A DNA stretch of 33,350 bases, from the NCBI RefSeq assembly GCF_019750675.1, contig NZ_JAIEOF010000067.1, positions 1-33,350 on the forward strand, written 5' to 3'. A model generated the notes under the pieces. That model was not told the DNA's origin. It saw only the letters and a program-made list of their open reading frames with translations, and did not search any database. Shown piece by piece: positions 4,467 to 33,350 of the stretch. Positions within the stretch are counted from its first letter, which is position 1. Each line of letters begins with the position of its first letter. The position numbers were made by a program, and so were the translations under genes. The DNA comes from Methylobacterium sp. Lineage in GTDB: Bacteria > Pseudomonadota > Alphaproteobacteria > Rhizobiales > Beijerinckiaceae.

Positions 4467-5339
4467 ATGATCCATGCCCTCGCCAAACCCGTCCTGAACC
4501 GCGCCGTCCTCGTGCGCTCCATCCTGGCGGCCGTGACGCTCGCCGCCCCCCTGGCGACCGCCGGCGCGGCGCTGGTGCCGAGCCCGGCGCACGCCGCCGG
4601 GGCCTCCGACGACGAGGCCGAGCGGCTCGCGCGCTGGAAGGAGATCCAGAAGTCCATCTTCGGCGACAAGACCATCACGGCGACGGACAGCCTCGTGAAG
4701 GTCGACGCGCCCGTGCGGGCGATGGACGCCTCCCTGGTGCCGATCACCCTGACCATGCCGGAGAAGGACCGGGTCGCGGCCGTCCACCTCATCATCGACG
4801 ACAACCCGTCGCCCTACGCCGCCCACATCGCCTTCGGTCCCGGAGCGGATGCCGGCGAGATCAAGCTGCGCGTGCGCGTGAACAACTACACCAACATCCA
4901 CGCGGTGGTGGAGACCCGGGACGGCCAGCTCTTCGAGACGACGAAGTTCGTGAAGGCCTCCGGCGGCTGCTCGGCCCCCATGGGCATGAGCGACGAGGAA
5001 GCCATGAAGGGCATGGGCGACATGAAGCTGAAGTTCGCCGAAGCCCAGCCCGGCCGCCCGGTCGAAGCGACGCTGATGATCCGTCACCCGAACTTCAGCG
5101 GCATGCAGATGAACCAGATCACCCGCGACTACACGCCGGCCCGCTACATCAACAAGATCGCGATCACGCGCGGGGACAAGACCGTGCTGACCCTCGACGG
5201 CGACATCTCGATCTCCTCGAACCCGGTGATCAATTTCGGCCTGCAGCCGGGGGGCCAGGGTCCGATAAAGGTGGTGGCATCCGACAACCAGAACGGCCGC
5301 TGGGAGCACAGCTTCACGGCGCCGAGTGCCACGAACTGA
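4467..5339 (+). CDS. Quinoprotein dehydrogenase-associated SoxYZ-like carrier protein
   Basis: 290-residue periplasmic protein: signal peptide to about residue 43 (ending PAHAAG), a SoxY-like Ig-fold domain (about 50-175) and a SoxZ-like domain (about 185-290) in one chain. In sulfur-oxidising SoxY the substrate is bound to a Cys in a C-terminal GGCGG; here the equivalent is ASGGCSAP (Cys168) at the end of the SoxY-like half, so the carrier cysteine is kept but placed internally by the fusion. Start ATG 4467 has AGGAGA six bases upstream. It lies 82 bp after the hydrolase and 13 bp before the CxxxCW gene. The fused family is known from PQQ alcohol dehydrogenase loci rather than thiosulfate oxidation; the carried group is unknown. 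Confidence 0.9.
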   Translation: MIHALAKPVLNRAVLVRSILAAVTLAAPLATAGAALVPSPAHAAGASDDEAERLARWKEIQKSIFGDKTITATDSLVKVDAPVRAMDASLVPITLTMPEKDRVAAVHLIIDDNPSPYAAHIAFGPGADAGEIKLRVRVNNYTNIHAVVETRDGQLFETTKFVKASGGCSAPMGMSDEEAMKGMGDMKLKFAEAQPGRPVEATLMIRHPNFSGMQMNQITRDYTPARYINKIAITRGDKTVLTLDGDISISSNPVINFGLQPGGQGPIKVVASDNQNGRWEHSFTAPSATN

Positions 5340-16197: not shown

Positions 16198-17601
16198 TCA
16201 GGCCAGCAGGTAGGTGAGGAGCGCGCGTAGCTGCGCCGGACGCACCGGCTTGTGAACGAGTTGCGCCCCCAGGGCGGCGACCTCCGCCTCGATCTCGGGC
16301 GAATGGTTGGCGGTGGTGACGATGACGGGACGGCGCAGGCCCGTCCGCGCTTCGAGATGCGTCGCCACGCCGAGGCCGCAGGCGCCGTTGTCGAGGTGGT
16401 AATCGAGCACCAGCAGGTCCGGCGGCGTCATGCCGGCGGCCAGTGCCGCCTCGACCCCGGCGAGGTCCCGGTGGACGCAGACCTCGGCGTCCCAGGCCCG
16501 CAGGAGGCGCTCCAGCGCGTCGGCGGTGGGCGGGTCGTTCTCGACCACGAGGACGCGCGCCCCCGTGAGCCGGGTCGTCACCGGCGACATCGTCACCGCG
16601 CGCTCCGGGGCCGTACGGCTCACCGGCAGGGTCAGGGCCATGCGGGTGCCGCGCCCGGCCCGCGAGGCGAGCTCGAGGGGATGGTCGAGGGCCAGCGCCA
16701 TCCGGCGCACGATGGAGAGGCCGAGGCCGAGGCCGGGCTCGCCCCCCTCCCCCTCCGCACCGCCCCGGAAGAACTCCTCGAACACGAGGTCCTGCTCGGC
16801 CTGCGCGATGCCGCAGCCGGTGTCGAACACCTCGATGCGGCAGGTCTCCCCGATACGGCAGGTCTCCCCGATGCGGCAGGACTCCCCGGAGGCCTGCCCC
16901 CGGCGGCGGACCGCCACCAGCACGCCGCCCTGCCGGGTGTAGCGGATCGCGTTCGAGACGAGGTTCTGCACGATGCGCTGGAGCAGCAGGGGGTCGCTCG
17001 CCACCACGAGGTCGGGGCCGCGCACGGAGAGACGCAGGCCCTTGCGTTCGGCGAAGGGCCGGAAGCTCGCGGCGATGCCGGTGAGGAGCTCGCTGAGCGC
17101 CACCGGCTTGATCGCCGGGCGCACCACGCCCGCATCGAGCTTCGAGATGTCGAGGAGGGTCTTGATCAGGTCCTCGATGATCTGGAGTCCGCGCTCGATC
17201 TGGCCCGAGATCGCCAGCGCCTCGGGACCCAGGGCGAGGTCGGCGAGCGCGGAGGCCGAGAGCCGCGCGGCGTTGAGGGGCTGGAGGAGGTCGTGGCTCG
17301 CCGCCGCCAGGAACCGGGTCTTCGAGCGGTTGGCGTTCTCGGCCTCCTCCTTGGCCGCCACCAGGGCCGCGTTGGAGCGCTCCAGGCGGTGCATCAGCCC
17401 GGTCAGTTCCTCGGTGCGCGTGCGGACGCGGCCCTCCAGCATGGTGGCGGTCTGGAACAGCGAGTAGGCACCGCCCTGCTGGTCCATGCTGCGCTCGACA
17501 TGGGCCATCAGGGCGGCGTTGATCCGCTCCAGCTTGGCGATGCGCCGCCGGGCCTCGTCCGCGTCCAGCGGAGGGCTCGCGGAATCGGGTGGACGCAGCA
17601 T
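16198..17601 (-). CDS. Hybrid sensor histidine kinase/response regulator without own sensor domain
   Basis: 467 residues, no membrane helix, so cytosolic. N-terminal coiled coil (about 15-95), dimerisation/phosphoacceptor box FLAAASHDLLQPLNA (97-111, His103), and an ATPase domain with the N-box NLVSNAIRYT (213-222), DTGCGI (260-265) and GLGLGLSIV (290-298). The C-terminal receiver has ENDPP acidic residues, phospho-Asp400 (VLDYHLDN) and Lys451. No PAS, GAF or periplasmic input is visible, so the partner is presumably the FIST protein, whose gene overlaps this start by one base (TGATG). Architecture and context resemble Pseudomonas NahK/ErcS'. Oddity: an 18-bp triplicated segment inserts GESCRI-GETCRI-GETCRI (239-256) just before the ATP-binding DTG motif. 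Confidence 0.92.
   Translation of the reverse strand: MLRPPDSASPPLDADEARRRIAKLERINAALMAHVERSMDQQGGAYSLFQTATMLEGRVRTRTEELTGLMHRLERSNAALVAAKEEAENANRSKTRFLAAASHDLLQPLNAARLSASALADLALGPEALAISGQIERGLQIIEDLIKTLLDISKLDAGVVRPAIKPVALSELLTGIAASFRPFAERKGLRLSVRGPDLVVASDPLLLQRIVQNLVSNAIRYTRQGGVLVAVRRRGQASGESCRIGETCRIGETCRIEVFDTGCGIAQAEQDLVFEEFFRGGAEGEGGEPGLGLGLSIVRRMALALDHPLELASRAGRGTRMALTLPVSRTAPERAVTMSPVTTRLTGARVLVVENDPPTADALERLLRAWDAEVCVHRDLAGVEAALAAGMTPPDLLVLDYHLDNGACGLGVATHLEARTGLRRPVIVTTANHSPEIEAEVAALGAQLVHKPVRPAQLRALLTYLLA
16834..16887. repeat. Three tandem 18-bp units inside the kinase ATPase domain
   Basis: Units at 16834-16851, 16852-16869 and 16870-16887 follow GATRCGGCAGGWCTCCCC. In-frame, each adds six residues (G-E-S/T-C-R-I). 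Related kinases usually have a single strand here, so about 12 residues are extra. Copies differ at only two positions, which implies recent expansion. Confidence 0.85.
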
Positions 17602-18797
17602 CACCGCGCGCCGAAGTCCCGGCCGGGCTCGCCCCGTCCGATGGCGATGCCGGTGAAGGTCTGGTTCAGGTGCATCGACCGGTACTGCTCGCCGTAGGTG
17701 TCGAAGCCGACGATGTCGTAGCGCCGATAGAGGTCGAAGATTCCGTGGCGCACCTGGCGGCTCTCGGCGTCGAGGCGGCGCAGCACGCATTCGAAGCCGA
17801 TGACGAGATCGATGCCGCCGAGATCCGCGTCGAGGCGGGCGAGCTCGGCCCCCGTCGCGGCCACGATGTCGCGCGGGCGCGCCAGGGTGAGGACGACGCC
17901 CTCGTCGATGGCGCAGAAGAAGCTCAGCGAACCGTCCGGGTTCATGCGCCGGATCGACCGGCAGAAATACTCGCCGCCCACCTTCACCGCGAGGGGATAG
18001 GCGGCAAAACTCATGGGCGAGAGGCGCTCGGGGTCGAGCCCCACCGCCATGGCGTATTCCCGCGCCGCCGGCTCGGCGTTGAGCTCGTGCACGATGCGCT
18101 GCTCGTCATCCGATGCGGTGACCACGAACTTCGTGTCGGTGGGCTCGAAATTGTCGCTCTTGAAGATCTGGATCGGGAAATCCGTCTCGACCAGCAGCAG
18201 CACGGCGGCCCGCTGGTGGATGCGGCCGTCATGGAGCAGCACGGTCTGGCGGAAGGTGAGGTCGTCCCCCGCCGAGCCCCCCACGAGGGGAATGCCGTCG
18301 AGCGCCCAGGCGATGGCCGAGACCACCGTCTCCTCCGCGTTGGTGAGGCCGTCGATCAACGAGAGGGCGAAGCGGCGTCCGGTGCCCGGGGCCAGGCCCG
18401 CACCGTCCTCGGCCTCGAGGCTCCGGCGCAGGGCCCGGACGCTGGAGGCCGTGCGCTCCACGTCGAGATGGTCGATGGCGTCGAGCAATGTCGAGACGAT
18501 GCGGAAATTCTCCCGCGGGAAGGCGATCACCACGAGGCCGCGATCGAGCCCGCCCGCCGGCGAGATGCCGCCCGACATGGTGCAGCCGGCGATGCCCGCG
18601 CCCGGAAAGCGCGCGGTGAGGGCCCGGTTGAGGGTCTCGACGTCGTAATCGGCCGAGAAGAACGCCACGATCTGCGCGACGCTGCGCCCGCCAATGGCCG
18701 CGCCGATCTCCGCGATCGCCGCGTCGGCCTCCTCGGCCTCGGTCCAGGCCGTCGTGATGCCGCACAGGTGCGTGCGCACCCGCGTCCCCTCTGTCAC
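17601..18797 (-). CDS. FIST-domain sensory protein (NosP-like)
   Basis: 398 residues from GTG 18797 (GGGAG nine bases upstream). FIST_N (about 30-230) is followed by FIST_C (about 235-380). Recognisable stretches: AGCTMSGGISPAGG, ALSLIDGLTNAEE, IPLVGGSAGDDLTF and the C-terminal IVGFDTYGEQY. The C-terminal end NQTFTGIAIG is typical of FIST_C. FIST proteins bind small ligands; the Pseudomonas NosP member binds haem and nitric oxide and controls the neighbouring kinase. The stop codon overlaps the kinase start, so the two are translationally coupled and probably form a complex. I cannot identify a haem ligand from sequence alone, so the ligand stays open. Confidence 0.88.
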   Translation of the reverse strand: MTEGTRVRTHLCGITTAWTEAEEADAAIAEIGAAIGGRSVAQIVAFFSADYDVETLNRALTARFPGAGIAGCTMSGGISPAGGLDRGLVVIAFPRENFRIVSTLLDAIDHLDVERTASSVRALRRSLEAEDGAGLAPGTGRRFALSLIDGLTNAEETVVSAIAWALDGIPLVGGSAGDDLTFRQTVLLHDGRIHQRAAVLLLVETDFPIQIFKSDNFEPTDTKFVVTASDDEQRIVHELNAEPAAREYAMAVGLDPERLSPMSFAAYPLAVKVGGEYFCRSIRRMNPDGSLSFFCAIDEGVVLTLARPRDIVAATGAELARLDADLGGIDLVIGFECVLRRLDAESRQVRHGIFDLYRRYDIVGFDTYGEQYRSMHLNQTFTGIAIGRGEPGRDFGAR

Positions 18798-18941
18798 GGT
18801 ACCGTCTCCCGCCCCATCGACGGGTGCCGGACTTGACGCCCGGTTCTCCGCGATGACACGAGTATGTCGGGCGGCCGGTTCCCGCGCAATGCGGCACCGA
18901 ACAGTCCCGGAACAGGGGCGCACCCGCCGGGCGGAACGGGC

Positions 18942-19601
18942 ATGCATCTCCTCATCGTCGACGATCACCCGCTGTTTCGCGATGCGCTCGCCAGCGCGGT
19001 GGGCCTCGCCTACCCCAACGCGACCCTGCACGAGGCCGACGGCATCGCCAGCGCCTGCGCGGTGCTCGCGGCCCAGCCCGCCATCGAGATCATCCTGCTC
19101 GACCTCTCCATGCAGGGCGTCACCGGCTTCGAGGGGCTGATGGCGATTCGCGCGCAGGTGCCGCGGGTCCCCATCCTCGTCGTCTCCGGCCTCGAGGATC
19201 CGCGCATCATCCGGGAAGCGCTGGAGCACGGCGCGGCGGGATTCGTGCCGAAGGCCGTTGACAAGTCGACCCTCACGCGGGCCATCGCGGACGTGCTGGC
19301 GGGGGGCCTCTCGGTGCCGGCGAACCTGCCGAACGCGCCGCTCGGCGCGTCATCCGCCCGCAAGGCGCCCCTCGCCGAGCGGGTCGCGAGCCTGACGCCC
19401 CAGCAATTGCGGGTGCTGGCGATGATCCGCCAGGGCAAGCTCAACAAGCAGATCGCGTACGAACTCCAGGTCGGGGATTCGACCGTGAAGGCGCACGTCT
19501 CCGAAATCCTGCGCAAGCTCGACGTGATCAGCCGCACTCAGATCGTGATCGAGACCGCGCTCCTCGACTTCGAGCGGATCACGGCCGCGCCGGAGCGCTG
19601 A
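18942..19601 (+). CDS. LuxR/NarL-family response regulator (ErbR/AgmR-like)
   Basis: 219 residues from ATG 18942. Receiver: acidic pocket VDDHP (6-10), phospho-Asp54 (LLDLSM) and Lys104 (FVPKAV). A linker rich in Ala/Pro/Ser leads to the LuxR helix-turn-helix at about 145-215 (LTPQQLRVLAMIRQGKLNKQ ... STVKAHVSEILRKL). Divergent from the FIST-kinase operon across 144 bp, so it is the likely output of that kinase. In Pseudomonas, comparable regulators next to NosP/NahK control PQQ ethanol oxidation, and this window has a quinoprotein accessory operon 13 kb away. Targets inferred only. Confidence 0.9.
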   Translation: MHLLIVDDHPLFRDALASAVGLAYPNATLHEADGIASACAVLAAQPAIEIILLDLSMQGVTGFEGLMAIRAQVPRVPILVVSGLEDPRIIREALEHGAAGFVPKAVDKSTLTRAIADVLAGGLSVPANLPNAPLGASSARKAPLAERVASLTPQQLRVLAMIRQGKLNKQIAYELQVGDSTVKAHVSEILRKLDVISRTQIVIETALLDFERITAAPER

Positions 19602-29685: not shown

Positions 29686-30792
29686 ATGCGCAGACAGATC
29701 AGCGGCGCGCTCGCCGGCGCTGCGCTGCTCGCCGTCGTGGCGGGCCTGAGTCCCGAAGCTCCTCGGGCCGGCCAGCCCGAGCCGGATCGTCCCGGCACGG
29801 CCCGGAACGACGCGCCCCCCGACGCGCTCGCCGCTCTGCGCGAGAGCTACCGGCGCGGCGTGGAGGACCCCTACCCGGCGGACAACCCCTACAGTCCAGC
29901 CAAGGCCGAGCTCGGACGGCGCCTCTTCTTCGATCCCGTCCTTTCGGGCGGGGGCACGATGAGCTGCGCGTCCTGCCACGTCCCCGCCCGGTCCTGGAGC
30001 GACGAGCGCCCGCGCGGCATCGGCGAGACCGGCGCCACGATGAAGGTCCGCACCCCGACACTGCTGGATGTCGCGCAGCTTCCGATCCTGGGGTGGGACG
30101 GCAAGTTCCGTGACCTCGAGGACGTGACCTTCACGCCGGTCACCAGCCCCAGCGCCATGAACCTGCCCGAGGCGGAGGCCATCGCGCGGCTCGCTCGGGC
30201 TCCGGACTACGTGCGTGCGTTCACCGAAGCGTTCTCGGAGAATGCCGGAGCGGCAGGCGCGGTCCCGGGATCCGACGAAGCCGTGGTCACCCGGCGGCGG
30301 ATCCAGATGGCACTGGCGACCTTCCAGCGCGGCATCGCCTCGGGCCGCGCGCCCTTCGACCGCTGGGTGGAAGGTGACGAGACGGCGATCGGCTCCAGCG
30401 CGAAAGCGGGATTCGCGGTCTTCAACGGCAAGGGCCGGTGCGCCGCCTGCCATTCCGGCTGGACCTTCACGGACGGATCGTTTCACGACATCGGCGTGGG
30501 CACCGGCGAGGATATCGGCCGGGCCGCCTTCTTCGCGAACTCGGTGCAGCTGCGCCACGCCTTCAAGACGCCGACGCTGCGGGACGTCGCCGAGCGCGGG
30601 CCCTACATGCATGATGGTTCCCTCGGCACCCTCGCGGAGGTCATCGACCTCTACGACCGCGGCGGGATCGAGCGGCCGAGCCGGTCGCCCGCCATCGCGC
30701 CGATCGGCCTTACCGAGACCGAGAAGCGCGACCTCCTGGCCTTCCTGCGGACACTCAGCGCCGAAGTTCCGGGCGGCCCTCGCCTGAACTGA
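29686..30792 (+). CDS. Di-haem cytochrome c peroxidase/MauG-family protein
   Basis: 368 residues, exported (signal peptide to about 28). Two c-type haem sites: CASCH (94-98) and CAACH (252-256), the spacing of bacterial cytochrome c peroxidases and MauG. Other family blocks: LGRRLFFDPVLSGGGTMSC before haem 1, VRTPTLLDVA, FKTPTLRDVAERGPYMHDGS near the C-terminus. It would reduce peroxide or oxidise a periplasmic partner. MauG proper sits in the mau cluster; here there is none, so general peroxidase is the safer reading. Start ATG 29686 follows AGGAG. An 8-bp CGTTAACG palindrome lies at 29643-29650. Confidence 0.9.
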   Translation: MRRQISGALAGAALLAVVAGLSPEAPRAGQPEPDRPGTARNDAPPDALAALRESYRRGVEDPYPADNPYSPAKAELGRRLFFDPVLSGGGTMSCASCHVPARSWSDERPRGIGETGATMKVRTPTLLDVAQLPILGWDGKFRDLEDVTFTPVTSPSAMNLPEAEAIARLARAPDYVRAFTEAFSENAGAAGAVPGSDEAVVTRRRIQMALATFQRGIASGRAPFDRWVEGDETAIGSSAKAGFAVFNGKGRCAACHSGWTFTDGSFHDIGVGTGEDIGRAAFFANSVQLRHAFKTPTLRDVAERGPYMHDGSLGTLAEVIDLYDRGGIERPSRSPAIAPIGLTETEKRDLLAFLRTLSAEVPGGPRLN

Positions 30793-30827
30793 TCATCCGG
30801 AACCCCGCCTGTCCGGAACACTGCTCG

Positions 30828-30989
30828 TCAGCGAAACAGCGGCAGGCCGGCGCCCAGGAGCCCGAGGCCGGCGATCAGCAGGCGGCCGGACCAGATCTCG
30901 CAGATCTCGGACCGGGCGGGATCGCGCGTCGCCGCGAAGGAAAGACCGGTCCCGAGGAGTAGGCTCGACAGGCTCAGGGTGGCGATCAC
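30828..30989 (-). CDS. Predicted 53-residue two-helix membrane peptide
   Basis: GTG start at 30989 with an excellent AAGGAGG six bases upstream. Translation: hydrophobic VIATLSLSSLLLGTGLSFAA, a polar turn TRDPARSEICEIW, then a second helix SGRLLIAGLGLLGAGLPLFR and TGA. Two membrane passes with a short charged loop containing a Cys. No family recognised. It lies tail-to-tail with the di-haem peroxidase gene and near other envelope redox genes. The strong ribosome site and coherent topology make it likely real. Confidence 0.6.
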   Translation of the reverse strand: MIATLSLSSLLLGTGLSFAATRDPARSEICEIWSGRLLIAGLGLLGAGLPLFR

Positions 30990-31171
30990 CGCTCCCCTCC
31001 TTGTGCGACGGCGGATGGACTTCCCCTAGCCGCTCCAAGGTTAGTGAACCATGGTCGGCCCACGGGTTTCGCGCGCCATCGTCATCAATCCGTTACGTCA
31101 CAACGGCGCGAACGATGAACCTCGTCCTATGCTTCGGCGCGGACGGCAGAGGCGAATGCGTCCCTCTCAAC

Positions 31172-31209
31172 GGAAGTTAACCATTCGGTAAGATCCGTTA
31201 ACAACTTCC
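31172..31209. promoter_or_regulatory. CtrA-like site within an inverted repeat upstream of the HVKWF gene
   Basis: TTAACCAT at 31177-31184, followed by TCG-GTAA, gives TTAA-N7-GTAA, one base from the CtrA consensus TTAA-N7-TTAA. The flanks GGAAGTT (31172-31178) and AACTTCC (31203-31209) are inverted, and TTAA recurs at 31198-31201. About 80-120 bases before the ATG at 31290. Confidence 0.4.
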
Positions 31210-31289
31210 TTCCGCAATGCATCGAAGGCGCGTAGTTTTCGTCGGGCCGGCAAGCCCCCGATCGCCGGTGATCTCAGCAAGGCCTCCCC

Positions 31290-32330
31290 ATGCAACCCGG
31301 AAGACGTTGGCTGCCGCGCACCGCAGTCATGACGATGACGGCTTTCTTCACGCTCGCGGGCACCAACGCCGCGATGGCACACGTGAAATGGTTCTGCGCC
31401 TACGATCTGGCGGGCGCGCCGCGCGGCCTCGGCGAGGTCCTGTGCGCGGACTTCGAGAAACTGGTCGGCCTCTCGCTGCTCGCCCTCGTGGTCGGGGGGC
31501 TGCTCGAGGGGACGGTGCTGGGGGCAGCGCTGATCCGATCCCTGGACCGTGCCACGGCCTGGGCTCGCGACAACACCGAATTGCTGTTTCGCGCCGTTTG
31601 CGGCGGTTTCTTCGTCGCTCTCTGGAGCCTGGGCGGCGTCATTCTCACGCCGGAGTTGAAGACGGCCAACACCGCCCTGCCCTGGTTCCAGCTCGCCATC
31701 GCGGTGGGCTTCCTGTGGCGCCGGACGATGCCGCTCTCGGCGCTCGGCATCGTGATCCTGTTCGTCACCGCGATCCTGGAGTACGGCGCCTTCCACCTCG
31801 CCGATTATCCGGTCTTCCTCGGCGTGGCCGCCTACATCGCCCTGACCGGCCTCGGCCGCTCCCTCCCCCGCGGCATCCGCCCCCTCGACGTGGTGCGCTA
31901 CACGGCCGCCGTCACCCTGATGTGGGCCTCGGTCGAGAAGTGGGCCTACCCGCAATGGTCCTACCCGCTGTTCGTCGAGCATCCGGGCATGACCTTCGGC
32001 TTCAGCGGCGAGTACTTCATGAAGGCGGCCGGTGCCGTGGAGTTCGTCCTGGCCTTCGCGCTGATCTGTACGCCGCTGGTCCGCCGCGTCTCCGCGATCC
32101 TCCTGGCGGCGACCTTCATCTCGGCGATCTTCGAGTTCGGGAAGATCGACGCCATCGGCCACGCCCCGATCATCGTGGCGATGGTGGCGATCGCCGCCGA
32201 CAACGCCACGGCCCCCTACCGCCTGCGCAATCTGGCGCTGACGCCGGTCGGGTACGGCGCCGCGCTGGCAGCCTTCATCGGGCTCTATTACGGCGCCCAC
32301 GCCGTGCTCCAGGGCACCAGCATCCTCTGA
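31290..32330 (+). CDS. Polytopic membrane protein with predicted N-terminal histidine (HVKWF), unknown function
   Basis: 346 residues. Residues 1-30 look like a cleaved signal peptide ending A-M-A; the predicted mature chain starts HVKWFCAYDL. About eight membrane helices follow (near 57-78, 100-120, 132-144, 147-165, 173-190, 203-218, 248-262, 267-285, 292-304, 318-336, some short). The C-terminal half (SVEKWAYPQWSYPLFVEHPG, about 214-233) recalls DoxX-like quinol-associated membrane proteins, but I cannot assign the family firmly. A mature N-terminal His is how CopC-like proteins and copper oxygenases bind copper, and a cupredoxin gene lies next door (convergent). This suggests a metal or redox role, as inference only. 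Confidence 0.8.
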   Translation: MQPGRRWLPRTAVMTMTAFFTLAGTNAAMAHVKWFCAYDLAGAPRGLGEVLCADFEKLVGLSLLALVVGGLLEGTVLGAALIRSLDRATAWARDNTELLFRAVCGGFFVALWSLGGVILTPELKTANTALPWFQLAIAVGFLWRRTMPLSALGIVILFVTAILEYGAFHLADYPVFLGVAAYIALTGLGRSLPRGIRPLDVVRYTAAVTLMWASVEKWAYPQWSYPLFVEHPGMTFGFSGEYFMKAAGAVEFVLAFALICTPLVRRVSAILLAATFISAIFEFGKIDAIGHAPIIVAMVAIAADNATAPYRLRNLALTPVGYGAALAAFIGLYYGAHAVLQGTSIL

Positions 32331-32456
32331 CGGGTGTCCCCGCCGGGCGAAGGCTCCGCCGGCATGGTATCCGAGCTCACCGAAGGGTCTCCGCACCATT
32401 CCGGGCGGGGGCCTTCCGGGTGACGGAGGGGTCCGTTCAGGCGGCGCGGCGCGCGT

Positions 32457-32804
32457 TCACTGGCCCTCGACTCGGACGCTGAGCTTCATCTTGGGATGGA
32501 TGCCGCACAACACCGCGAAGGTTCCCCTGACCGGGAAGGTGACCTTGGTGCGACTGCCGGGCTTGAGGTCGCCGGAATCGAAATTAAAATCGGGCGCATC
32601 GACGTAGACGTGGTGCAGCAGATCGCCGTCGTCGTTGACGATCTCGACGCTGGCACCGCGCGGCACCAGAAGGGCATTCGGCTGAAACGCCCGCCCCTTC
32701 TGGGACACGTGAAGGATCGGCGCACCGACCGCGGACAGGGCAACTCCCGCACTCGCCACGCCCAGCACGCCGAAGATCAGGCAACAAGCGGTGAGGCGTC
32801 GCAT
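32457..32804 (-). CDS. Exported cupredoxin (plastocyanin/azurin-like type I copper protein)
   Basis: 115 residues from ATG 32804. Signal peptide to about 25. Type I copper ligands are visible: His64 or His65 (LLHHVYV) and the C-terminal loop Cys100-x2-His103-x2-Met106 (LCGIHPKMK). The short C-x2-H-x2-M loop is that of plastocyanin/amicyanin-like electron carriers. It should shuttle single electrons in the periplasm; partners could be the di-haem peroxidase or a dehydrogenase. The gene converges with the HVKWF membrane-protein gene, 126 bp apart. Confidence 0.9.
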   Translation of the reverse strand: MRRLTACCLIFGVLGVASAGVALSAVGAPILHVSQKGRAFQPNALLVPRGASVEIVNDDGDLLHHVYVDAPDFNFDSGDLKPGSRTKVTFPVRGTFAVLCGIHPKMKLSVRVEGQ

Positions 32805-32926
32805 CGGTGGTCCGTTCGTAGAAGCATGGTGAGGCGCGGAGCCCGCCGATCGAGTTCCGAAATCCCGCTGCAACCGGCACGCTCGAAATCCTGCGGTCTC
32901 ACGAAGACACGTGCGCGTGAAGTATC

Positions 32927-32973
32927 CGTTAAGGCGGTGGGCGGCGGCGCGACACCTCAAGATCACCTTAACG
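32927..32973. promoter_or_regulatory. Inverted CGTTAAGG/CCTTAACG pair in a divergent promoter region
   Basis: Perfect 8-bp arms at 32927-32934 and 32966-32973 with 31 bases between. It lies between the divergent cupredoxin and sensor genes and could bind a dimeric regulator at two sites. Identity unknown. Confidence 0.4.
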
Positions 32974-33016
32974 TCTGTCCGGCATACTGCGCGTTATCGC
33001 TGGACGGACGGATTTG

Positions 33017-33350
33017 ATGACACCTCCCGAAGCACCGATGACGACCGGCAGCCGGCGTCGCCGGACCCTGCCGGACACCCTCGGCGCGCTGCTCGGTACG
33101 ATCCGCGGCCGGATCGTGATCGCCTTCCTGGTCATGAGCACGATCACGGGTGCGCTCGGGCTGTCGGCGGCGTCGAGCATCCGGCGGGCGGACGAGCTCG
33201 TGAGCCAGACCTTCGACCGCTCGCTGATGTCCATCAACTACGCACGGGCCGCCGCCACCGATTTCGCCGGGATGCGGGCCGTGGAGGCACGCCGCTGGCT
33301 GATGAGCGATCCCGCGGCGCGAACGGCCCTCGAGGAGCGGGTCGTTAGCC
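33017..33350 (+). CDS. Membrane sensor protein, N-terminal part only (runs off the window)
   Basis: Open from ATG 33017 to the window end, 111 codons with no stop. It has a basic N-terminus (GSRRRRTLPDTL), one membrane helix (IVIAFLVMSTITGALGLSAA, about 33-52), then a helical extracytoplasmic segment (ADELVSQTFDRSLMSINYAR ... DFAGMRAVEARRWLMSDPAA) of the four-helix-bundle type found in chemoreceptors, nucleotide cyclases and histidine kinases. The output domain is outside the window, so the class cannot be fixed. An alternative start is the Met at codon 8. Confidence 0.75.
   Translation, partial: MTPPEAPMTTGSRRRRTLPDTLGALLGTIRGRIVIAFLVMSTITGALGLSAASSIRRADELVSQTFDRSLMSINYARAAATDFAGMRAVEARRWLMSDPAARTALEERVVS

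Follow-up and report, generated by a model that had tools for sequence, protein, structure and literature searches.

Periplasmic redox chemistry acting through a GGDEF-EAL protein has been described in Salmonella, where DsbA/DsbB are linked to STM3615 (PMC4143323). The MHYT-GGDEF-EAL sensors NbdA, MucR and CdgB are reported to combine conserved membrane residues on the periplasmic side and a copper/nitric oxide (NO) theme with an output in cyclic di-GMP (c-di-GMP) (PMC11347149). For the vitamin K-dependent gamma-carboxylase GGCX, Lys218 and His160 are described as essential, with Lys218 deprotonating vitamin K hydroquinone (PMC9146348). Here we report on a gene set that recalls each of these in part. 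It lies at the end of a 33,350-nucleotide stretch of DNA from Methylobacterium sp. (contig NZ_JAIEOF010000067.1; the whole stretch analysed is hereafter the window) and is built around a polytopic protein with the N-terminal motif HVKWF, here called HVKWF. The best single reading, to which we assign a probability of roughly 0.42, is that the set is a redox module facing the periplasm, with quinone and/or metal chemistry, whose output goes into c-di-GMP signalling. No description of the gene set was found in the literature searched, which was limited to open-licence papers, and nothing matching it was found in Pfam or NCBIfam, in line with an earlier reading of the window from its letters (the sequence-only reading), which had recognised no described system. 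The four genes noted there proved real and linked at the positions given below, and a conserved fifth gene, from 33014, lay beyond the range it covered. The genes and the parts of HVKWF are:

29686..30792, + strand: MauG-like di-haem protein of 368 amino acids (aa), Pfam CCP_MauG 1.5e-43
30828..30989, − strand: hydrophobic membrane peptide of 53 aa, with a GTG start in the window and ATG in many relatives
31290..32330, + strand: HVKWF membrane protein of 346 aa (...AMA-HVKWF..., His being residue 31)
31290..31379, + strand: predicted signal peptide of HVKWF, residues 1-30, with A-M-A followed by His31
31872..32330, + strand: DoxX-like C-terminal half of HVKWF, residues about 195-346, including K217 and E251
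32457..32804, − strand: type-1 cupredoxin with signal peptide and ligands H...C-x2-H-x2-M
33014..33350, + strand: 5' part of the gene for a c-di-GMP protein of the layout 4HB_MCP-HAMP-PAS-GGDEF-EAL, truncated where the contig stops

Conservation of the gene set

A contig scan with six patterns, MAHVKWFC among them, gave 63 loci; a whole-protein search, added as a complement, covered 149 genomes of the family, 21 of them with an HVKWF match. Combined, these made 86 loci, with some genomes present as copies. Where HVKWF is at least 70% identical (20 loci), the MauG-like gene stands upstream, the peptide gene is present and the cupredoxin gene is convergent at 20/20 each, and the GGDEF-EAL gene is found, in the same place and on the same strand, at all 19 loci with enough downstream sequence. 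The synteny of HVKWF with the cupredoxin, proposed as a check alongside the sequence-only reading, is thus conserved. At 50-70% identity (47 loci) the counts are 19/40 for the MauG-like gene, 9/40 for the peptide, 36/46 for the cupredoxin and 21/43 for the GGDEF-EAL gene, and at 45-50% (four loci) they are 0/2 for the MauG-like gene, 1/4 for the cupredoxin and 3/4 for the GGDEF-EAL gene. Several loci have changed order and the genes have nonetheless stayed close: HVKWF, GGDEF-EAL, MauG-like and cupredoxin genes at L223 and L221, and HVKWF, GGDEF-EAL and cupredoxin genes at L062. At L076 and L077 the c-di-GMP gene is beside HVKWF though the cupredoxin gene is not adjacent.

Co-occurrence across genomes followed the same pattern. 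Close HVKWF homologues (E <=1e-85) were present in 14 of the 149 genomes and cupredoxin homologues (E <=1e-20) in the same 14 plus G107, a genome 73% complete; the cupredoxin was therefore found in 14/14 genomes with a close HVKWF versus 1/135 others (Fisher 9e-19, with both E limits picked after the lists had been seen). HVKWF and the cupredoxin are on separate contigs in at least one of the 14, G044. No cupredoxin at E <=1e-20 was found in the seven genomes whose HVKWF is more distant. In the HVKWF tree, all 25 cupredoxin-linked rows fall on one side of a branch with 100/100 support, separate from the other labelled rows. Across 398 genomes of the phylum HVKWF was matched in 11, two of these matches being partial or weak and every one coming from the window's class; among 72,556 plasmids there were 21 records with a match, one of which, from Comamonas, lies outside that class. 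These genes almost certainly form a conserved functional set, and since the set stays together across genera it is probably one periplasmic redox-sensing unit.

Some loci depart from the common arrangement. In a genome of the same order, L096 (1399-1773 and 528-1288, both − strand) matched only the first part of HVKWF; this partial gene adjoins frames that appear transposase-like by eye, with the MauG-like gene still adjacent. Methylobacterium also has another type of HVKWF with roughly 60% identity (L020, L022, L026-L031, L035, L048, L050, L059, L063 and L064); it is accompanied by a cupredoxin, and no MauG-like gene lies beside it in the available flanks. Strains E-065, GXS13, J-026 and J-088 and M. 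pseudosasicola carry two HVKWF copies or part-copies on separate contigs. On the megaplasmid of Methylorubrum extorquens AM1, an HVKWF gene (L184, 8001-8948) has none of the tested partners within ~8 kb.

The HVKWF protein

The HVKWF protein of the window is 98% identical to its counterpart in M. goesingense DSM 21331. Searches of Pfam, NCBIfam and the sequences in the PDB gave no match for it. Over the 86 loci, H31, K33, W34 and F35 are identical in 81/81 alignable rows, A30 is found in 80/81 and A28 in 75/79. In alignment A1, whose 68 rows are the window protein plus 67 of the 77 remaining locus proteins of full length, A30 is kept in 67/68 and A28 in 64/68, and the leaders, 23-44 aa long, all end at the same place, with the single exception of a 10 aa leader from a contig-edge locus. 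The 22%-identical relative L097 carries AHVRWF. The invariance of A-x-A | His31 behind leaders of varied length makes a mature N-terminal His likely, with predicted signal-peptidase cleavage placing His31 first in the mature protein. The sequence-only reading had predicted this cut after A-M-A by analogy with CopC; the signature held throughout, while the fold is probably DoxX/GGCX-like instead of CopC-like. At L097 (1471-3035) the distant relative lies between an SDR-type gene, assigned by eye, and a gene for a small protein of 180 aa that includes the stretch GHAHLYVNGQKIARLYG and gave no convincing Pfam match.

Conservation extends beyond the N-terminus. Of 18 positions checked in A1, 17 are identical in 68/68 rows, and W34, W212 and W223 are invariant. 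Cys36 and Cys52 occur together in 50 of the 56 rows that we assigned to the window's branch, but in 0/12 others. The loop charges fit an N-out orientation, with Lys/Arg commoner in the loops taken as cytoplasmic, and on this topology H31, K33, T120, H169, D172, Y173, E216, K217, D287 and H291 would face the periplasm.

Two lines of comparison suggest a fold. DoxX was weakly matched by 14/68 rows of A1 (best 2.9e-5) and MauE by 7/68, in the C-terminal half wherever ranges were read. The gathering cut-offs were reached neither for DoxX (PF07681; no match for the window protein, 22.3 versus 23.6 bits for L097) nor for MauE (PF07291; no match for the window protein, 24.3 versus 27 bits for L083). 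Compared as a profile with 24 DoxX proteins (from 30 DoxX loci, six being dropped at reading-frame choice), the C-terminal half gave E 4.2e-4 at 34% probability over 104 columns. An AlphaFold (AF2) model of HVKWF, the structure prediction proposed alongside the sequence-only reading, reached pLDDT 88.8 and pTM 0.87, and in VIA-align its top 14 rows were all GGCX (Z 7.7-9.9, 216-229 residues), the next row being at 4.2. A second model, of L097 (pLDDT 80.1), matched NACHO/TMEM35A at Z 9.5, followed by 15 GGCX rows at Z 7.6-9.3; NACHO superposes on its C-terminal half with an rmsd of 3.0 over 126 residues. We take NACHO/TMEM35A to be a DoxX-type protein of the DoxX/MauE superfamily. HTTM proteins themselves match the DoxX profile (E 3.1e-5). 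Together these results make a DoxX/GGCX-like fold likely for HVKWF. H169 followed by K217 would have the same topological order as His160 and Lys218 of GGCX, at the outer ends of helices.

The partner proteins

The best-scoring NCBIfam model for the MauG-like protein was TTQ_mauG (TIGR03791; 2.8e-94, 315.6 bits, below the cut-off of 443.85), and MbnH (TIGR04039) gave 197.5 bits, below its cut-off of 362.85. Length limits left 42 of 43 MauG-like rows, one of them, L058, being a distant homologue that does not adjoin HVKWF. Both CXXCH haem motifs are conserved (C94/C97/H98 in 41/42 and C252/C255/H256 in 42/42, L002 numbering), and 42/42 rows keep a Tyr aligned with that of MbnH, where the peroxidases 1iqc and 3o5c have Met; we take this Tyr to be the distal ligand of the C-terminal haem. 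We therefore rejected a plain cytochrome c peroxidase: the sequence-only reading was right about a cupredoxin and a di-haem protein as neighbours, and the latter is of the MauG/MbnH (Tyr) type.

Homologues of the peptide were found at 31/86 loci, with S6, G13, E31, G35, G41, L42, L44 and G46 kept in 31/31. The cupredoxin scored below the cut-off of Pfam Cupredoxin_1 (1.1e-4, 22.5 versus 27 bits); its His, Cys, His and Met ligands are present in 58/58 aligned rows, 60 homologues having been found and two set aside by length. A longer open reading frame of 169 aa extends beyond the start of the cupredoxin. The part of the c-di-GMP gene inside the window matched 4HB_MCP_1 (3.2e-5, below the cut-off), and its 964 aa relative at L002 has 4HB_MCP (just under the cut-off), HAMP, PAS, GGDEF (4.2e-49) and EAL (1.3e-72).

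CtrA-like sites

The strands of the genes alternate, so the five genes are not one operon. Three sites, each with one mismatch, were called in the spaces between them with what we take to be the CtrA consensus:

31176..31191, − strand: CtrA-like site between the peptide gene and HVKWF
32917..32932, − strand: CtrA-like site between the cupredoxin and GGDEF-EAL genes
32957..32972, + strand: CtrA-like site ahead of the GGDEF-EAL gene

Over 33 loci with readable, in-place cupredoxin and c-di-GMP genes (five probable copies left out), TTAA density was 9.77 per kb before HVKWF, 5.38 in the cupredoxin/GGDEF-EAL region and 0.46 elsewhere; this baseline is the remaining, mostly coding, locus DNA, so part of the excess reflects intergenic composition. 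Exact TTAA-N7-TTAA was present at 9/33 loci before HVKWF and at 6/33 between the cupredoxin and GGDEF-EAL genes. In the latter region spacing 7 stands out (six loci, other spacings at most one); before HVKWF, spacings 17 (12 loci) and 6 (seven loci) are also common. Alternating strands with CtrA-like sites in shared promoters fit a lifestyle switch.

A proposed periplasmic redox module linked to c-di-GMP

In the reading we favour, HVKWF would be exported and its leader removed, so that His31 becomes residue 1, and its helices would form a DoxX/GGCX-like bundle that brings H31, K33, H169, D172, Y173, E216, K217, D287 and H291 to the periplasmic face. There they may build a quinone- and/or metal-binding redox site. 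The blue-copper protein could shuttle electrons to or from this site, with the MauG-like di-haem enzyme as the other electron partner, acting on peroxide or a protein side chain. The 4HB-HAMP-PAS-GGDEF-EAL protein would then read the redox or copper state, possibly as altered by NO, and convert it into a change in c-di-GMP. With a c-di-GMP protein in the cluster, sensing is no less likely than copper handling. In Methylobacterium and its alphaproteobacterial relatives, such a module would give respiration, or stress from metal or NO, a way to act on the switch between motile and sessile life, and the conserved gene set would link periplasmic copper/haem redox chemistry to c-di-GMP. A stronger form, which we consider rather doubtful, would make HVKWF a new class of membrane redox sensor/enzyme, with a quinol site in a DoxX/GGCX fold that meets, at the periplasmic surface, a metal site at its N-terminal His; a dedicated blue-copper protein and the MauG-type di-haem enzyme would then couple c-di-GMP turnover to the quinone pool, together with copper or NO. 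A family that is nameless in Pfam and NCBIfam in any case gains a set of invariant residues, together with a fold and a processed N-terminus that are both likely.

Several results weigh against this reading. At the 15 loci with HVKWF below 45% identity, the available flanks had neither MauG-like nor peptide gene (0/15 each) and neither cupredoxin nor GGDEF-EAL gene (0/12 each), which implies that these partners are not part of the basic function of HVKWF; the MauG-like gene, not immediately upstream at 21/40 loci of 50-70% identity, may likewise be accessory. The clustering of the invariant residues depends on the predicted topology. As to the fold, Foldseek with the HVKWF model gave nothing better than E 0.088, and for the L097 model an unrelated row at Z 7.1 comes close behind GGCX at 7.6. 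Helical bundles without kinship can reach Z 13 and all GGCX scores are below that; since such scores can reflect a common helical arrangement, we call the GGCX match a fold likeness and not kinship. A direct profile comparison of HVKWF with HTTM (PF05090) gave E 0.23, which is no match, and the N-terminal half of HVKWF was rejected as a second DoxX repeat, as its profile matched neither DoxX nor the C-terminal half. In the window itself, the spacing between the two TTAA ahead of HVKWF is 17 bases instead of 7.

The HTTM comparison was run with alignments of 1 + 4 and of 8 + 11 sequences and gave no direct match with either; two of 13 partial HTTM loci fell under the score limit, and L200 and L201 were left out. 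Pfam likewise gave no HTTM match for the window protein.

Alternative explanations

The sister branch of the tree directs attention to NO and copper. This group has 15 rows, the placement of the very long L097 branch being uncertain. We looked at the surroundings of 21 loci at 31-43% identity, 11 from genomes and ten from plasmids, with Acetobacteraceae-type rows excluded; 15 belong to the sister group, L216 lies outside it, and L209 and L217-L220 are unplaced. Genes for Rrf2, Hmp (flavohaemoglobin), truncated haemoglobin or NnrS were found within 3 kb at 10/21 of these loci and at 9/15 sister-group loci, two of the ten being matched by Rrf2 alone, and an EAL gene is also present at two of the ten. 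NnrS is regarded as a copper- or quinone-dependent membrane protein that handles or senses NO. The set may by the same token be a nitrosative-stress module, in which HVKWF would be a membrane protein of that kind and the window's clade would pass the NO signal on to c-di-GMP; the copper sensing and NO-linked GGDEF-EAL output described for MHYT proteins offer a precedent (PMC11347149). The available flanks of the 71 control loci of at least 45% identity, 39 of which have at least 3 kb on both sides, contained none of these NO genes, nor did the ten Acetobacteraceae-type loci, several of which are at contig ends. On balance we hold this explanation to be rather unlikely. The accessible text of a paper on the Bradyrhizobium NnrR regulon discusses NnrS and does not mention cupredoxin, DoxX, MauG or diguanylate (PMC6710368).

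The same branch bears on a second possibility, that HVKWF and the cupredoxin take up, store or oxidise periplasmic copper and that the c-di-GMP gene is a mere neighbour. The cupredoxin ligands are invariant, DUF305 is fused to HVKWF at 5/21 loci of 31-43% identity, and a heavy-metal P-type ATPase or multicopper oxidase gene lies near some sister-branch loci; CopM, a protein of two DUF305 domains, is described as a periplasmic copper-binding protein (PMC4335983). Among the 71 control loci, the available flanks had no DUF305, no multicopper oxidase and one P-type ATPase, at L019, 3.9 kb away. The c-di-GMP gene, moreover, is conserved like the cupredoxin gene among close relatives and stays in L076 and L077, and we judge copper handling in this narrow sense unlikely. 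For the family as a whole, copper and NO are both live leads, and in the window's branch only the cupredoxin speaks for copper. The sequence-only reading stands in part: copper is backed by the cupredoxin and by the DUF305 fusions of the sister branch, and that branch points equally to NO stress.

By analogy with the maturation of methylamine dehydrogenase, the MauG-like enzyme and a DoxX/MauE-like partner might instead oxidise a side chain in the cupredoxin, HVKWF or the peptide. That TTQ_mauG is the nearest NCBIfam model, that the Tyr-type haem site is kept in 42/42 rows, and that HVKWF has weak MauE matches and invariant W34, W212 and W223 would suit such a machine. The MauG score is below its cut-off, however, and HVKWF often lacks an adjoining MauG-like gene. 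The peptide, in which neither Trp nor Cys is conserved, was rejected as a substrate for MauG. The methylamine dehydrogenase light chain (PF02975) had no match in the window's own genome, control genomes being equally silent. We regard a maturation machine as improbable. That unrelated genes merely travel together is very improbable: alternating strands would allow it, but order and strand are kept over genera, rearranged L221 and L223 keep the genes close, and close HVKWF and cupredoxin co-occur almost perfectly.

Other genes in the window

The window opens with a chemotaxis receptor gene (HAMP-MCPsignal; 4-1611, + strand), and the 4HB_MCP gene at its other end is ~31 kb away. A SoxY-SoxZ fusion protein is encoded at 4467-5336 (+ strand), of a type that is presumably a companion of quinoprotein dehydrogenases. 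A FIST-domain protein and an adjoining hybrid histidine kinase with receiver (17601-19226 and 16198-17787, both − strand) are likely a sensory pair.

Comparison with known systems

The favoured reading, a redox module that signals through c-di-GMP, resembles Salmonella DsbA/DsbB and STM3615 in having periplasmic redox act through a GGDEF-EAL protein, whereas that system uses thiol-disulphide chemistry and unrelated proteins. With the MHYT-GGDEF-EAL sensors it shares the features given at the outset, but Pfam scans of the HVKWF proteins and of three GGDEF-EAL relatives found no MHYT domain, and the functions are in separate genes, not one fusion. The predicted His at residue 1 recalls CopC and the histidine-brace proteins; HVKWF differs in being a helical membrane protein with no CopC Pfam match, and the invariant H169 and H291 are candidates for the second copper ligand of such a brace. 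The di-haem protein has the two haem motifs and the Tyr ligand position of MauG/MbnH, while scoring below both model cut-offs and having different neighbours.

For HVKWF itself the nearest relations in form are the DoxX/MauE superfamily (PF07681, PF07291) and GGCX. K217 and E251 align with the conserved DoxX Lys and Glu, and NACHO matches the C-terminal half of the distant relative L097; HVKWF is larger than these proteins, has a signal peptide and an invariant N-terminal HVKWF, and gave no Pfam match. GGCX (HTTM, PF05090) supplied the best fold matches for the HVKWF model and, after NACHO, for that of L097; HVKWF, with 346 aa against 624-698 in GGCX chains, is without the long soluble part and has no direct sequence-profile match. 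HVKWF might offer a genetically tractable bacterial likeness of the GGCX fold.

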